A DNA stretch of 64,000 nt, taken from Lachnospiraceae bacterium. Its GTDB lineage: Bacteria; Bacillota; Clostridia; Lachnospirales; Lachnospiraceae. Below, piece after piece: positions 57,594-63,415 of the stretch. The translations under genes were made by a program, and so were the position numbers. Each line of letters starts with the position of its first letter. The first letter of the stretch is position 1. Location of the stretch: NCBI GenBank assembly GCA_022647575.1, contig JALCKY010000003.1:62001-126000 (forward strand), given 5' to 3'. The notes under the pieces are model-generated. The model did no database searches. It had not been told where the DNA came from and saw only the letters and a program-made list of their open reading frames with translations.

Positions 57594-58715
57594 TCACAGG
57601 GACTCGTCGATTTCCGTAAGCGCCTTCGTCAGACGTTCGAACCCTTCCGCCGTGTCTGCCGGCGAAGTCATCAGCAGCAGATATCCGGGCATCGCCTTTT
57701 CCGCAGCCAGATGATAGTTCTGATAAAGAATATCATAGAGCTGTGTACCTTTTATGTCCGTATCTGCCGCAGAGATCACGATTTTCGACGGTTCCGCGCA
57801 GGGAGCCTCAAACAGTTTCAGATGATGCAGCCCCTGAAGGCTCCTGCGGCATTTCCGGAGTTTCTGCACATAGGCCTCAAAATATTCTTCCCGGTGTTCC
57901 TGCAGGAAATGGATGCAGGATGTGATGGACGCCATGAGGATGTAGGACGGACTGGACGACTCGTAAATGTCCATCCATTTCATGAGCTCCTCCGTTTTCA
58001 CCCTGCCCGTCGCATTGTGGAGCAGGGAAGTCTGCGTCAGCGACGGCAGCGTTTTGTGGAGGCTCTGCACCGTGAGGTCCGCACCGCACCGGACAGACGA
58101 TTCCGGAAAATAAGGATGCATCGAAAGATGCGCGCCGTGCGCTTCATCGACAATCAGAACCGTGCCTTGCGTATGTGCCGCTTCCGCCAGGGCGGAAATG
58201 TCCGAAACGACCCCTTCATACGAAGGCGACGTCACGATCATGGCATCGAAGTGCTGTGCGGAAAGAAGCTTCTTGGCTTCTGAGACACCGACCGGGCCCG
58301 GGACATCCGGGATCATTTCCCCGGAAGTGATTTTCGTGACCTGAAGATCCAGCAGTTCCGCCGCGTGGAAAACCGAACGATGGCAGTTGGCCGCGGCAAG
58401 AAGCCTGCCGCCTCTTTTCACCGAAGCGCTGACGGCCGCCAGGTTCGAAGCCGTGCTTCCGTTGACCGAGAAAATCGTATCTTTCGTGCCGTAAAAGCGT
58501 GCGGCATTTTCCATCTCTTCCTTCAGGATTCCGTGCGGATCATGCAGGTCGTCGAAAGGAGGGATTTCCGTCACGTCGACGGACGCAAGCGGAAAATCTC
58601 CGCACAGAAAAGGATTGCCGGGGGAAGCAGTCTGCCTCTTGTGCCCCGGCATATGGAATCCGTAATAATCCGTCTGCGCGTATTTCTTCAGTTCCTCTTC
58701 CAGATGCATCGTCAT
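57594..58715 (-). CDS. PLP-dependent Orn/Lys/Arg decarboxylase-family protein, short form
   Basis: 373 residues. Fold-type I enzyme of the YaaO/SpeA group: FHMPGHKR at the N-terminus, NGSTASNLAAV, VDEAHGAH (cofactor Asp), and SLHKTLPSLTQ with the PLP Lys. The usual family length is 450-490; the C-terminal domain is largely missing, but the gene ends normally, so this looks like a natural short form. Substrate not assignable. Overlaps the response regulator by four bases. Confidence 0.85.
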   Translation of the reverse strand: MTMHLEEELKKYAQTDYYGFHMPGHKRQTASPGNPFLCGDFPLASVDVTEIPPFDDLHDPHGILKEEMENAARFYGTKDTIFSVNGSTASNLAAVSASVKRGGRLLAAANCHRSVFHAAELLDLQVTKITSGEMIPDVPGPVGVSEAKKLLSAQHFDAMIVTSPSYEGVVSDISALAEAAHTQGTVLIVDEAHGAHLSMHPYFPESSVRCGADLTVQSLHKTLPSLTQTSLLHNATGRVKTEELMKWMDIYESSSPSYILMASITSCIHFLQEHREEYFEAYVQKLRKCRRSLQGLHHLKLFEAPCAEPSKIVISAADTDIKGTQLYDILYQNYHLAAEKAMPGYLLLMTSPADTAEGFERLTKALTEIDESL

Positions 58716-59401
58716 ACCTTGAAGCGATAGCCGACACCCCAGATGGTTTCGATGTACTGCGGCTTCGCCGTATCAAATTCGATTTTCTCGCGGATCTTCT
58801 TGATGTGGACCGTGACGGTCGCGATATCGCCGATGGACTCCATGTTCCAGATTTTCCGGAACAGTTCCTCCTTCGTAAAGACGTGGTTCGGATTCTCGGC
58901 AAGGAAAGTCAGAAGATCGAACTCCTTGGTCGTAAACTGCGTCTCCTCCCCGTTCACCCATACGCGGCGCGCCGTCTTGTCAATCCGGATGCCCCGGATT
59001 TCAATGACATGATTCCGCTGCGTCTGCTGGCCGATCAGTCGCTCGTACTGAGCCAGATGCGCCTTGACGCGGGCCACGAGTTCCGACGGAGAAAACGGCT
59101 TCGTCATATAATCGTCCGCACCCAAACCGAGGCCTTTGATCTTATCGACGTCTTCCTTCTTGGCCGAGACCATGATGATCGGCGTGTTCTTCTGTTCGCG
59201 GATCTTCCGGCAGACCTCAAAGCCGTCGATGCCCGGAAGCATCAGGTCCAGGATAAAAAGATCGTAGTCCTTTTCCAGCGCCGCCTTCAGGCCCTTCTCG
59301 CCGTCGTATTCAATATCCACTGAAAAATTGGAAAGCTCAAGATAATCCTTCTCCAGATCGGCGATGGATTCCTCGTCTTCAATAATCAGAATCTTACTCA
59401 T
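58712..59401 (-). CDS. OmpR/PhoB-family response regulator
   Basis: 229 residues. Receiver domain with acidic pocket (IIEDEE), phospho-acceptor Asp in LFILDLMLPG (about 52), Thr/Ser switch (IIMVSAKK) and KPF; then a winged-helix DNA-binding domain (FTTKEFDLLTFLAENPNHVF...GVGYRF). It overlaps the kinase gene by eight bases. Family members bind direct repeats spaced 10-11 bp; such a repeat lies in the promoter region of this operon. Confidence 0.96.
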   Translation of the reverse strand: MSKILIIEDEESIADLEKDYLELSNFSVDIEYDGEKGLKAALEKDYDLFILDLMLPGIDGFEVCRKIREQKNTPIIMVSAKKEDVDKIKGLGLGADDYMTKPFSPSELVARVKAHLAQYERLIGQQTQRNHVIEIRGIRIDKTARRVWVNGEETQFTTKEFDLLTFLAENPNHVFTKEELFRKIWNMESIGDIATVTVHIKKIREKIEFDTAKPQYIETIWGVGYRFKV

Positions 59402-60515
59402 TTGCCTGACCCTCCCGGTACTTTCTCAAAACAAAATACATCGTTGTTCCTTCGCCTTCCCTGCTGGTTGCCCAGACACGGCCGCCGTGGTCTTCCATGA
59501 TCTTCCGGACGATCGACAGCCCGATTCCCGAACCGCCCTGTCCCGAATGCCTGGAGGAATCCGTGCGGTAGAACCGGTCGAAAATGTTTCCGATATCCTT
59601 CGGCGAAATTCCTTTTCCGTTGTCCTCGATCACCGCCTGCACGTCATCCCCCAGATCCATGACGCGCATGCTGATGCGCTTCTCCGGCTTGTCCATGTAC
59701 TTCACGGAATTGCTGATGATGTTGTTGATGACTCTCTTGATCTGCTCGACATCGGCAATGACTTCCGCGTCCGGCGATACATCACAGGAATAGCGGAACT
59801 CAATATTCTTCTGTTCCAGCTCCAGCTGAAGAGCATCGCTGGCGTCCCCGAAATAGCTGCAGACATTTACCTTCGTGAAGTTGTACGGAATCCGGTTTGT
59901 ATCAATCTTCGAATAAAACGTCAGCTCGTTGATAAGATTGTCCATCTCATTCGCTTTATTGTAAATCGTGCGGATGTATTTGTCCATTTTTTCGGGACTG
60001 TCCGCCACGCCGTCCATGATGCCTTCGCAGTAGCCCTTGACGGCAGTGATCGGCGTCTTCAGGTCATGCGAAATGTTCGAAATCAGTTCCCGGTTCTCTT
60101 TATCGAAGGCAACCGATTCCTCGTTCGCCGTTTTCAGCCGCGACCTCATTTCCTCAAAGTCTTCGCACAGCTCGCGGATTTCCTGCACGCCCTCCGGACG
60201 GATCGTAAAGTCCAGATTGCCGTCGCGGATATTCTTGGTCGCTTTTGTCAGATTGACAAGCGGAGCCGAAATTCCGCTGTTGATCCAGACGCTCAGGATG
60301 GCAGCCGTGACGACCAGGATGGCAACCATGCACGTCGTCAGCGTCACGAACAGTGACCGGATATCCGGCGAAAGGTTCGCGATATCGATGCCGAATTTTG
60401 ACTGGATCATGCTTGCCTGGAAGACGCCGACGCCGATGAGAAGCGTTACCGACAGAAGGACCGGGACCAGGATAATGATCAGGAAGGAAATGAACAGACG
60501 CGTTCTCAGTTTCAA
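59394..60515 (-). CDS. Sensor histidine kinase with short external loop
   Basis: 373 residues. Two membrane helices (about 7-30 and 57-80) flank an external loop of only about 26 residues, followed by HAMP, HisKA (ISNISHDLKTPITAVKGY, phospho-His about 150) and the ATPase domain (N-box NNIISNSVKY, DNGKGISPKD, FDRFYRTD, GGSGIGLSIV). Such a small loop suggests sensing within the membrane, as in envelope-stress or peptide-antibiotic sensors. First gene of the operon, divergent from the Nif11 peptide gene. Confidence 0.95.
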   Translation of the reverse strand: MKLRTRLFISFLIIILVPVLLSVTLLIGVGVFQASMIQSKFGIDIANLSPDIRSLFVTLTTCMVAILVVTAAILSVWINSGISAPLVNLTKATKNIRDGNLDFTIRPEGVQEIRELCEDFEEMRSRLKTANEESVAFDKENRELISNISHDLKTPITAVKGYCEGIMDGVADSPEKMDKYIRTIYNKANEMDNLINELTFYSKIDTNRIPYNFTKVNVCSYFGDASDALQLELEQKNIEFRYSCDVSPDAEVIADVEQIKRVINNIISNSVKYMDKPEKRISMRVMDLGDDVQAVIEDNGKGISPKDIGNIFDRFYRTDSSRHSGQGGSGIGLSIVRKIMEDHGGRVWATSREGEGTTMYFVLRKYREGQANE

Positions 60516-60539
60516 GGCATTCTACCTCCGTATGTTTTT

Positions 60540-60583
60540 ATTATATCATATAAAAAAGGATTGATTTGTTGTAGATTTGTTGT
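60540..60583. promoter_or_regulatory. Divergent control region: -10 box plus 10-bp direct repeat at 11-bp period
   Basis: On the minus strand TATAAT (60540-60545) serves the kinase operon. At the matching -35 position there is no -35 box but an exact direct repeat, gatttgttgt at 60563-60572 and again at 60574-60583 on the plus strand. The repeat lies 54-74 bp before the peptide ATG on the other side. The period of one helical turn fits a tandem OmpR-family dimer site. The regulator identity is inferred from adjacency. Confidence 0.65.
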
Positions 60584-60636
60584 TGCTTTTCTGCTATTTT
60601 AAAACTATCACTAAAATCAATCGGAGGTATGTCAGA

Positions 60637-60900
60637 ATGAATATAGATGAATTCCTGAAAAAAGCAGAAGCAGATGAAAAGCTCGCAAATGAATTCAAGG
60701 CAGCGGCCAGTGCAGACCGTCTGAATGAGTTCTTCAAATCCCATTCCATCGATACGACCAAAGAAGACTTTCTGAAATATGTTCAGGAATATGCCAGGAA
60801 CAATACCGAACTCAGCGATGAGGAACTCGATGCGGTAGCGGGCGGCAACAACAACGTCTTCATGCTGTTCACGGCAAAGCTCTTCTGCGCCAATCACTGA
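60637..60900 (+). CDS. Nif11-type leader peptide (RiPP precursor-like)
   Basis: 87 residues from MNIDEFLKKAEADEKL, with TCGGAGG six bases upstream. Residues 1-70 resemble the Nif11-derived leader class: amphipathic helical segments, then LSDEELDAVAGG with the double-Gly cleavage site at 69-70. The predicted core is the 17-mer NNNVFMLFTAKLFCANH, hydrophobic with one Cys. No modification enzyme, peptidase or dedicated transporter is in the window. It is followed by a strong terminator. An unmodified signal or bacteriocin is possible. Confidence 0.8.
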   Translation: MNIDEFLKKAEADEKLANEFKAAASADRLNEFFKSHSIDTTKEDFLKYVQEYARNNTELSDEELDAVAGGNNNVFMLFTAKLFCANH

Positions 60901-60923
60901 ACGGAAAGAGATTCTTCCAAACG

Positions 60924-60980
60924 AAAGACACTTCCCCCTGCGGTCAATCCTCTGCCGCTGAAGGAAGTGTCTTTTATTTT
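60924..60980 (+). terminator. Terminator of the Nif11-type gene
   Basis: A perfect 12-bp stem aaagacacttcc (60924-60935) / ggaagtgtcttt (60963-60974) with an inner gcggt/ccgc pairing, followed by TTTTATTTTG. Read on the minus strand it could also help end metK. Confidence 0.88.
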
Positions 60981-61017
60981 GCTTTTCTCTTCCTGCCGTG
61001 CCGGATAAATTTCCGGA

Positions 61018-62208
61018 TCAGGCCAGATATTTCTTCAGATCGTCCACGCGGTCCAGTTTCTCCCACGGAAGATCCAGGTCGCTGCGTCCGAAATGACCGT
61101 AAGCCGCGGTCTGACTGTAGATCGGACGGCGGAGATCCAGCGTCTTGATGATGGCCGCCGGACGGAAATCAAATTCCTTCATCACGATGTCTTCGATATC
61201 GCCGTCTGCAAGTTTTCCGGTGCCGCGGGTATTGATGTTGACGGAAGTCGGACGTGCTACGCCGATAGCATAAGAAACTTCAATTTCGCATTCATCGGCA
61301 AGACCGGCTGCCACCAGGTTCTTGGCAACATATCTTGCGAAATAAGTCGCAGAGCGGTCAACCTTTGTCGGATCTTTTCCGGAGAAGCAGCCGCCGCCGT
61401 GGCTGGCATAGCCGCCGTAGGTGTCGACGATGATCTTGCGTCCGGTCAGACCGGAATCCCCGTGAGGACCGCCGATGACGAAACGTCCGGTCGGGTTGAT
61501 GAAGACTTTCGTCTTGTCGTCAATCATTCCTTCCGGAACGACTGCGTCGATGACGTATTTGCGGATATCCTGATGAATCTGTTCCTGCGTGACATCCGGA
61601 TCATGCTGTGTGGAAACGACGACCGCTTCAAGGCGTGCCGGTTTTCCGTCTTCGCCGTATTCGACGGAGACCTGCGTCTTGCCGTCCGGACGGAGATATT
61701 TCAGTATTCCGTTCTTGCGGACTTCAGCCAGCTTCAGGGCCATTTTCTGGGCAAGGGCAATCGGGTACGGCATGTATTCGGAAGTGTGGTTGGATGCATA
61801 GCCGAACATCATTCCCTGATCGCCGGCACCGTTCTGTTCAATTTCCGCATCGGACATCTCATTTTCCTTGACTTCCAGAGCCTTGTCGACGCCCATCGCG
61901 ATATCGGCCGACTGCTTGTCGAGGCAGACCACGACGGAGCAGGTGTCCGCATCAAAACCGTAAGCGGCGTCCGTGTAGCCGATTCTGCGGATCGTATCAC
62001 GGGCGACCTGCTGAATGTCGACATTCGCCTTGGATGTGATCTCGCCCATAATAAAGACAATGCCTGTCGTCGTGCAGGTCTCGCATGCAACACGGCTCAT
62101 CGGATCCTGCGCAAGATATGCATCCAGCACAGCATCAGAGATCTGGTCGCAGACTTTGTCCGGATGACCTTCCGTCACGGACTCGGATGTGAAATACCTT
62201 TTACCCAT
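61018..62208 (-). CDS. metK: S-adenosylmethionine synthetase
   Basis: 396 residues from [18 protein letters not shown], the family start; AAAGGA lies upstream, and a longer ATG runs into the riboswitch terminator. Makes SAM from methionine and ATP. Signature [12 protein letters not shown] (about 117), the P-loop-like [16 protein letters not shown], and phosphate-site residues are intact. Expression is controlled by a SAM-I riboswitch. Monocistronic. Confidence 0.98.
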
Positions 62209-62268
62209 TTTCTGTTTTCCTTTCTCTGCCTTACGGCGATTTGTTTTTTTTTGCTTACCGTCGCCCAA

Positions 62269-62412
62269 TAAAAAGAGCCCGCAATAAGCGGACCCGAATC
62301 AACGTAATTCCCTTATTGTTCGATCGCTCGCTCAGGTTGGCACCATCCCCGCTGCGGGAGGTTGCCGCGGCTTCATCGACCCTCTGTGTCTCCACCGTCT
62401 CTTAATAAAGGT
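62269..62412 (-). ncRNA. SAM-I (S-box) riboswitch with terminator
   Basis: On the minus strand the aptamer (62309-62412) shows P1 CCTTTATT/AATAAGGG, AAGAGACGGTGGAG, GATGAAGCCGCGGCAACC and ATGGTGCCAA, all matching S-box consensus blocks. A terminator stem GGTCCGC-TTATT-GCGGGCT (62274-62292) followed by CTTTTT shares bases with the downstream flank. High SAM should therefore end transcription before metK. Confidence 0.94.
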
Positions 62413-62446
62413 AAGCAAACTGCCTATGGTTTTTTACAACAAAGAG

Positions 62447-62475
62447 AATGTACCAAATCCCGTCTGACTATTCAA
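62447..62475 (-). promoter_or_regulatory. Sigma-A promoter of riboswitch-metK
   Basis: Minus-strand -35 TTGAAT (62470-62475), 17-bp spacer, -10 TACATT (62447-62452). Transcription would start about 30 nt before the aptamer. Confidence 0.7.
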
Positions 62476-62480
62476 GATAC

Positions 62481-62510
62481 AAAACCGCCGGTTTGTCTAT
62501 ACCGGCGGTT
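62481..62510 (-). terminator. Terminator of hslO
   Basis: Ten-bp perfect stem aaccgccggt (62483-62492) / accggcggtt (62501-62510), followed on the minus strand by TTTTG. It directly precedes the metK -35 box. Confidence 0.85.
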
Positions 62511-62527
62511 CCCGAAGATTTTCTGTT

Positions 62528-63415
62528 TTACTTTTTCAGAGAAGCAGACTTCTCGATTTCCTTCAACTCATCAATTGAAAATGAATATTTCTTTTCGCAG
62601 AAGCCGCACGAGAGCGTGACTTCCTTTCCGTCCGCGATCATGGAATCCAGCTCCTTTTTCCCGATGGCAATCAGTGCCTTCGTCACCCGCTCCCGGCTGC
62701 AGTCGCAGTGGAAACGGACCGGCATCTTCTCATGGATCACCGGCTGCTGATCCCCGAGGATTTCCTGCAGGATGGATTCGGGCGTACCTCCGTTTTTCAA
62801 AAGATCCGTCACGGATTTGATTCCCTTCATTTTTGCTTCCAGACGGTCGATGCATTCCGCCGGCGCATCCGGCATCAGCTGGATAATGAATCCGCCGGCC
62901 TCACGCACCGTATTGTCGTGATTCATCAGAACACCCAGCCCGACTACCGACGGGGTCTGTTCACTGGAAGCAAAATAATAAGTGAGGTCATCTGCGATTT
63001 CCCCGGTCTGGATTTCAACCTCGCCGATATAGGGATCCTTCAGGCCGATGTCCCGGATCACCCGCAGCGTGCCGTGTCCGACCGCGCCGCCCACATCCAG
63101 TTTTCCCTGCGGGCTCGGCGGCAGCATCACGTCCGGGTTTTTCACATATCCTTTGACGTCCCCGTCAGAGCGTGCCGTCACGGTGATTCCGCCGATCGGG
63201 CCGTCCCCGTCGAAAGTAATCGTCAGGACATCCTTTTCCCCCTTCATCATGGCACCCATCATTCCGCCTGCCGTCAACGCCCTTCCCAAGGCTGCCGCAG
63301 CAACCGGACTCAGGCCGTGGACCCTTCTGCCCTCTTCTGCCATTTCCCTTGTCGTTGCCGCAAAGGCACGGATATGCTCTTCCGCCGCTGTTGCGCGGAC
63401 CATATAGTCGCTCAT
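62528..63415 (-). CDS. hslO: Redox-regulated chaperone Hsp33
   Basis: 295 residues from MSDYMVRATAAEEHIRAF; CAGGAGG lies upstream, while the frame open further upstream is low-complexity. Under oxidative stress its zinc-binding Cys form disulphides and turn it into a holdase. The four Cys are present at the C-terminus as CDC and CGFC. Motifs GRALTAGGMMGAM and EILGDQQP are typical. Useful to an anaerobe exposed to oxidants. It lies downstream of a radical SAM gene. Confidence 0.96.
   Translation of the reverse strand: MSDYMVRATAAEEHIRAFAATTREMAEEGRRVHGLSPVAAAALGRALTAGGMMGAMMKGEKDVLTITFDGDGPIGGITVTARSDGDVKGYVKNPDVMLPPSPQGKLDVGGAVGHGTLRVIRDIGLKDPYIGEVEIQTGEIADDLTYYFASSEQTPSVVGLGVLMNHDNTVREAGGFIIQLMPDAPAECIDRLEAKMKGIKSVTDLLKNGGTPESILQEILGDQQPVIHEKMPVRFHCDCSRERVTKALIAIGKKELDSMIADGKEVTLSCGFCEKKYSFSIDELKEIEKSASLKK

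Follow-up and report, generated by a model that had tools for sequence, protein, structure and literature searches.

A gene for a Nif11-type double-glycine peptide in the genome of a Lachnospiraceae bacterium is preceded by a tandem repeat with an 11-bp phase, which is predicted to be an activator box of the peptide's own promoter that stands in for a –35 element. The gene (60637–60900, plus strand) is situated in a 64-kb window (i.e., the whole stretch of DNA analysed, 64,000 nucleotides of contig JALCKY010000003.1), divergently from the genes for a sensor kinase and a response regulator. Taken as a whole, the data make it probable that the box belongs to a regulon of peptides exported in trans and governed by a SARP-like response regulator. 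The exact 10-mer GATTTGTTGT occurs twice, at 60563–60572 and 60574–60583, as an earlier sequence-only reading of this DNA had reported, and is the sole exact 10-mer of more than two letters that is repeated with an 11-bp spacing in the window (exact 10-mer repeats at the other spacings from 9 to 15 bp number 0 to 7 each). Moreover, 1 of 2000 dinucleotide shuffles of 60516–60636 yielded an exact tandem 10-mer with a spacing of 10–12 bp.

Pattern searches and site alignment delimited the box as TTTGTTGT-AGA-TTTGTTGT (60565–60583, plus strand), with both 11-bp-phased copies pointing to the peptide and located 54–72 bp ahead of its ATG (60637), so that the repeat is indeed placed upstream of the peptide start, as previously read. 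It is followed by a predicted –10 element (5′-TATTTT-3′; 60595–60600, plus strand), 11 bp past the second 8-mer (i.e., 8 bp past the second 11-bp unit), and by a likely ribosome-binding site identified from the sequence (5′-GGAGG-3′; 60623–60627, plus strand). The repeat is thus contained in a larger promoter pattern, TTTGTTGY-N3-TTTGTTGY-N11-TANNNT, which reads toward the peptide. A possible RNA element behind the repeat was rejected, since an Rfam scan of 60300–62600 returned a single match at the gathering score, i.e., the SAM riboswitch upstream of metK (62310–62411, minus strand; RF00162, 65.5 bits).

This pattern derives from the box set of the host genome (referred to as G000, with contigs C1, C3, C4, C6 and C7 mentioned below). 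With up to 3 mismatches allowed, the repeat was found at 10 places in this genome versus 0 for the reversed pattern, and because a –10-like hexamer recurred at the same distance on one side of most of these places, the pattern was refined to include it; in the window, this conserved distance falls on the peptide side. The refined pattern yielded 21 host sites at up to 2 mismatches versus 0 for the reversed control, showing that the repeat recurs beyond chance, and 30 host sites (one being a shifted copy of the window's site) versus 3 at up to 3 mismatches. When the 21 sites and one of the 3-mismatch sites were aligned (the remaining 3-mismatch sites being excluded), columns outside the pattern were also found to be kept, i.e., a G in all 22 sites and a T in 21. 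Across the 41 other genomes of the genus, the refined pattern at up to 2 mismatches gave 13 sites in total, distributed over 10 genomes, versus 5 for the control.

Beyond the genus, the exact pattern was found in at least 118 stretches of GTDB genomes. Among the 80 stretches listed, most come, judged by title, from rumen or gut Lachnospiraceae, Ruminococcus, Eubacterium, and other Clostridia, and a few come from unrelated phyla, possibly by chance. The same predicted promoter switch therefore recurs in many rumen and gut bacteria. In 12 box-holding genomes (mostly from the rumen, and hand-picked among box holders), 134 boxes were present at up to 1 mismatch versus 0 for the reversed control. 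On contig C6 of the host, two 3-mismatch sites flank the gene for a response regulator whose receiver is joined to an unusual C-terminal part, and relatives of this protein, henceforth referred to as SARP-like, are encoded in 11 of the 12 genomes (E 1e-15). SARP-like genes cluster with the boxes in these genomes, with 13 of 29 within 5 kb of a box versus 1.25 expected, while OmpR-type genes do not (5 of 145 versus 7.21 expected); the 29 were drawn from 38 rows (9 partial matches omitted), and the 145 from 151 matches (those omitted being truncated, unlisted, or themselves SARP-like). The loci found by the DNA pattern alone, at least 118 in number, likewise contained 17 SARP-like genes versus approximately 0.9 expected from the 12-genome densities, and 5 OmpR-type genes versus about 4.5 expected, although some of these loci come from the same genomes as the 12, causing both tests to overlap. 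At four loci (L178, L118, L135, and L182), the regulator comes first, then, after 14 to 67 bp, the box, and then the target gene; at another (L115), the box is followed by a double-glycine peptide and then by the regulator.

The host encodes two such SARP-like proteins, one on C6 (C6:164472–165296) and one on C3 (C3:239410–240210), the latter next to a multi-pass histidine kinase that matches the His_kinase and HATPase_c models of Pfam. The class appears to combine a receiver with a SARP-like winged helix and a short helical tail, and the Pfam Response_reg model matched one of the two host proteins (70.8 bits) and all 14 relatives scanned. SARPs have been defined by the bacterial transcriptional activator domain (Pfam BTAD; PMC10663231). 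No BTAD match was obtained in the host genome at E 0.1 or in the 14 relatives, so that an identity as full SARPs was rejected and the proteins are named SARP-like rather than SARPs. Since a full-length structure search ranked OmpR-type response regulators first and a second one was dominated by receiver domains, the C-terminal half was modelled alone, using the regulator at L115, i.e., a relative rather than the host's own two proteins. The resulting model (pLDDT 90) contains the OmpR-type winged-helix DNA-binding domain characteristic of SARPs, and in a structure search EmbR and AfsR ranked above all OmpR-type domains. A profile of the C-terminal half searched against the PDB also placed EmbR first (E 0.0074) and AfsR fourth (E 0.31), both weakly. 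The alignment with AfsR and EmbR covers the OmpR-type winged helix and a portion of the helical domain behind it; unlike in SARP activators, the winged helix is here fused to a receiver and followed by a short tail only.

The promoter layout points in the same direction. SARP promoters have direct repeats spaced 11 or 22 bp, with the 3′ copy 8 bp from the –10 element and the box over the –35 position (PMC10936776), and the box described here shows the same 11-bp repeats and the same 8-bp distance when its units are counted as TTTGTTGYNNN. Unlike SARP systems, however, the host is a member of the Clostridia, and the boxes stand at scattered exported-peptide and surface-protein genes. A receiver and a winged helix also occur together in PhoB/OmpR-type response regulators, and pho boxes, like the box here, are 11-bp-phased tandem boxes taking the place of a –35 element. 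Nevertheless, the distance to the –10 element fits the SARP gap better than pho-box spacing, Trans_reg_C matches just 2 of the 14 relatives, and OmpR-type genes are not enriched near boxes in the 12 genomes. Among the titles returned by a literature search, none dealt with this box or with clostridial receiver-SARP regulators, with one result set covered in small part.

Double-glycine leader peptides (one of them only 31 amino acids long) follow 10 of the 22 host sites. Two of the other host targets carry cell-wall-binding repeats, one of them being a papain-like protease; further targets are a TIR-domain protein, two receiver-containing sensor kinases, and a receiver-like protein that scored under the Pfam cut-off. 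A Pfam scan of nine further host targets left five without a match (four target proteins and one peptide). In the other genomes, 7 of 115 distinct boxes precede double-glycine peptides and 35 precede signal-peptide-like proteins, versus 4 and 13, respectively, of 271 shifted control positions (assigned by crude rules, and skipping boxes with less than 300 bp behind them). Individual host loci include a box with 3 mismatches ahead of a TIR-domain protein of 1122 amino acids (C1:691462–694899, i.e., L243:3463–6900; TIR_2 at 42.9 bits, cut-off 28), and a locus at which several boxes accompany clustered double-glycine and Nif11 peptides (C4:128062–131048, i.e., L235:6063–9049). In one peptide of the latter locus (L235:6858–7097), the GG leader precedes a part that resembles a cold-shock domain (CspE model at 42.6 bits, below the cut-off of 120). 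Elsewhere, a nonribosomal peptide synthetase-like protein (amino acid adenylation domain, 319.8 bits; C7:111922–116691, i.e., L246:1923–6692) adjoins a Nif11 peptide.

The window's own peptide counts 87 amino acids, i.e., a leader (residues 1–70) ending in the Gly-Gly cleavage site ELDAVAGG and a 17-residue core, NNNVFMLFTAKLFCANH. Its assignment to the Nif11 type, already made by the sequence-only reading, was borne out by the TIGR03798 leader model (38.9 bits, cut-off 32.3), with the Pfam Nif11 model scoring under its cut-off (19.4 versus 23.8 bits). At 200 kb from this gene, the host carries a full NHLP-type C39 ABC exporter (C3:323544–325712; NHLM_micro_ABC1 at 900.9 bits, cut-off 853.3, and Peptidase_C39). 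Also encoded there are a radical-SAM-like protein, beside the exporter, another Nif11 peptide that passes the cut-off, and a second ABC subunit (best match NHLM_micro_ABC2 at 614.6 bits, under the cut-off of 709.4). The lah cluster of Lachnospiraceae C6A11 shares the leader family, the Gly-Gly site, and a C39 exporter with the present system (PMC6363468), and the C6A11 genome itself (G059) holds 23 boxes. Because of the leader family and this C6A11 precedent (PMC6363468), the window's peptide is most likely cut and exported by the NHLP-type C39 exporter. In contrast to the lah cluster, several precursors here stand singly, each with its own box, and the window's precursor is remote from the exporter.

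In the favoured mechanism, the two 11-bp units ending 8 bp before the –10 element would replace the –35 element, and the host boxes, at least 21 in number, would subject many unlinked genes to a single activator, chiefly genes for double-glycine peptides and for surface or sensor proteins. We infer that the box is bound, and the promoter activated, by a response regulator combining a receiver with a SARP-like winged helix, most likely one or the other of the host's two. The peptide would be trimmed past its Gly-Gly site and then exported in trans, and would have been inserted, together with its box, into the gap upstream of a bystander kinase/VanR-like pair.

Several observations weigh against a SARP-like activator, and in part favour another one, i.e., one of the other nine OmpR-type regulators, a LytTR-type regulator (at least one being present in the host), or an unrecognised factor, with the SARP-like genes as frequent members of its regulon. 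Both host SARP-like genes are more than 10 kb away from any box with 2 or fewer mismatches, and solely when 3 mismatches are allowed does one of them have two boxes, at 1.6 and 2.5 kb. One genome with 13 boxes (G061) lacks a SARP-like match at E 1e-15, and at least 19 relatives in the genus have near-full-length SARP-like matches yet boxes at control level. Recognition-helix regions differ widely among the box-linked regulators (that of L114 being the most host-like by eye), and when the surroundings of SARP-like genes were scanned generally for other tandem words with an 11-bp period, the yield did not rise above background, with 16 hits other than TTTGTTG at period 11 and gap 8 (a few being the box on the opposite strand) versus 2 to 18 at other settings. 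Words of similar geometry near SARP-like genes, i.e., TTTGTGTC (L305:5040 and L306:4522), TTTGATG (L307:6035), and TGTTGGAC (L317:7047 and L322:7225), are suggestions only of variant boxes. Moreover, clustering is unable to separate regulator from target, and the P values of the 12-genome comparison overstate independence because several regulators share one cluster and the genomes were picked for their boxes. Even so, another activator seems unlikely, since a regulator would be expected to travel with its box, which OmpR-type genes do not, and since SARP promoters share the geometry of the box and SARPs the fold of the box-linked proteins. The repeat spacing of LytTR-type regulators, about 21 bp, does not fit the box either.

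The sequence-only reading had proposed a peptide-sensor circuit in which the adjacent VanR-like regulator binds the repeat and drives both its own operon and the peptide, and in which the peptide feeds back on the kinase. OmpR-type regulators do fit tandem 11-bp sites, the VanR-like gene is adjacent to the repeat, and 2 of the 10 host OmpR-type genes, one being that of the window's pair, have a box with no more than 2 mismatches within 2 kb (0.29 expected, P 0.03), which weakly favours this regulator as the binder and speaks against the SARP-like one. A second host locus resembles the window's layout, with a box and a double-glycine peptide between an OmpR-type regulator and a kinase-like gene identified by eye (C1:473762–474923, i.e., L227:9763–10924; case at C1:474243). 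However, the circuit had beforehand been tied to conservation of the repeat with the gene pair, and no box precedes the kinase in any of the 29 relatives whose upstream DNA was read over as much as 400 bp, even though 31 of the 42 genomes of the genus (counting the host) contain the kinase at E 1e-60. These 29 stem from 30 relatives with the kinase, one of which (G053) gave no locus; kinase starts are crude in a few (L020, L036), and some contigs end short of 400 bp. Boxes at control level in the genus, the –10 distance on the peptide side, and the lack of OmpR-type clustering in the 12 other genomes further disfavour the VanR-like regulator as the binder. The external kinase loop noted in that reading was recovered by eye as a short loop between two N-terminal hydrophobic segments, although its proposed link to the peptide is countered by a similar loop region in peptide-less relatives (by eye). 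The circuit is thus improbable: the repeat does look like a tandem activator site in place of a weak –35 element, but in front of the peptide, and not as one bound by the adjacent regulator or used by the kinase operon. Slippage, finally, makes short AT-rich tandem repeats, but a chance or mutational duplication with no regulatory role is very hard to reconcile with 21 sites versus 0 in the control, a fixed –10 distance, unselected columns that are kept, and the same promoter in many genomes.

With the SARP-like regulon as the preferred reading, the neighbouring pair, consisting of a sensor histidine kinase with HAMP, HisKA, and HATPase_c domains (59394–60515, minus strand) and an OmpR/VanR-like response regulator (58712–59401, minus strand), looks like a bystander, with the kinase probably outside the circuit and the regulator probably not that of the box. 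As had been read earlier, the kinase operon has a good –10 element without a good –35, i.e., an extended –10 (TGATATAAT; 60548–60540, minus strand) with a best –35 match of 2 of 6 positions. An extended –10 (TGNTAWAHT) within 150 bp of the kinase start is common to the window and 14 of the 29 relatives; 1 to 4 of the 6 –35 positions match in these cases. Because these 14 relatives carry it without a box, the weak –35 is probably ancestral and requires no box. A metK stop was located 55–251 bp upstream of the kinase in 18 of the 29 relatives (using a crude motif), and the peptide gave a single weak match in 40 other genomes (G015, E 3.9e-4). Since the relatives have no box upstream of the kinase and the peptide is nearly absent elsewhere, peptide and box appear to have been inserted into the gap that separates the kinase from metK.

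In a broader sense, there is an even chance that response regulators of the receiver-SARP type constitute an as yet undescribed regulator class in Clostridia of the rumen and gut, in which the tandem TTTGTTGY promoter recruits scattered genes into a regulon of trans-exported double-glycine peptides and surface proteins, and which a new peptide gene may join by landing with its box, as between metK and the kinase. If true, the SARP mode of promoter activation, known from actinomycetes, would extend to Clostridia, and an output domain mostly missed by Pfam would receive a name. In rumen and gut genomes that lack annotation, a one-line DNA search would then reveal orphan exported peptides along with the regulator that likely controls them. 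Such a regulon would also account for a possible coordination of double-glycine peptides that are remote from an exporter or biosynthetic cluster.
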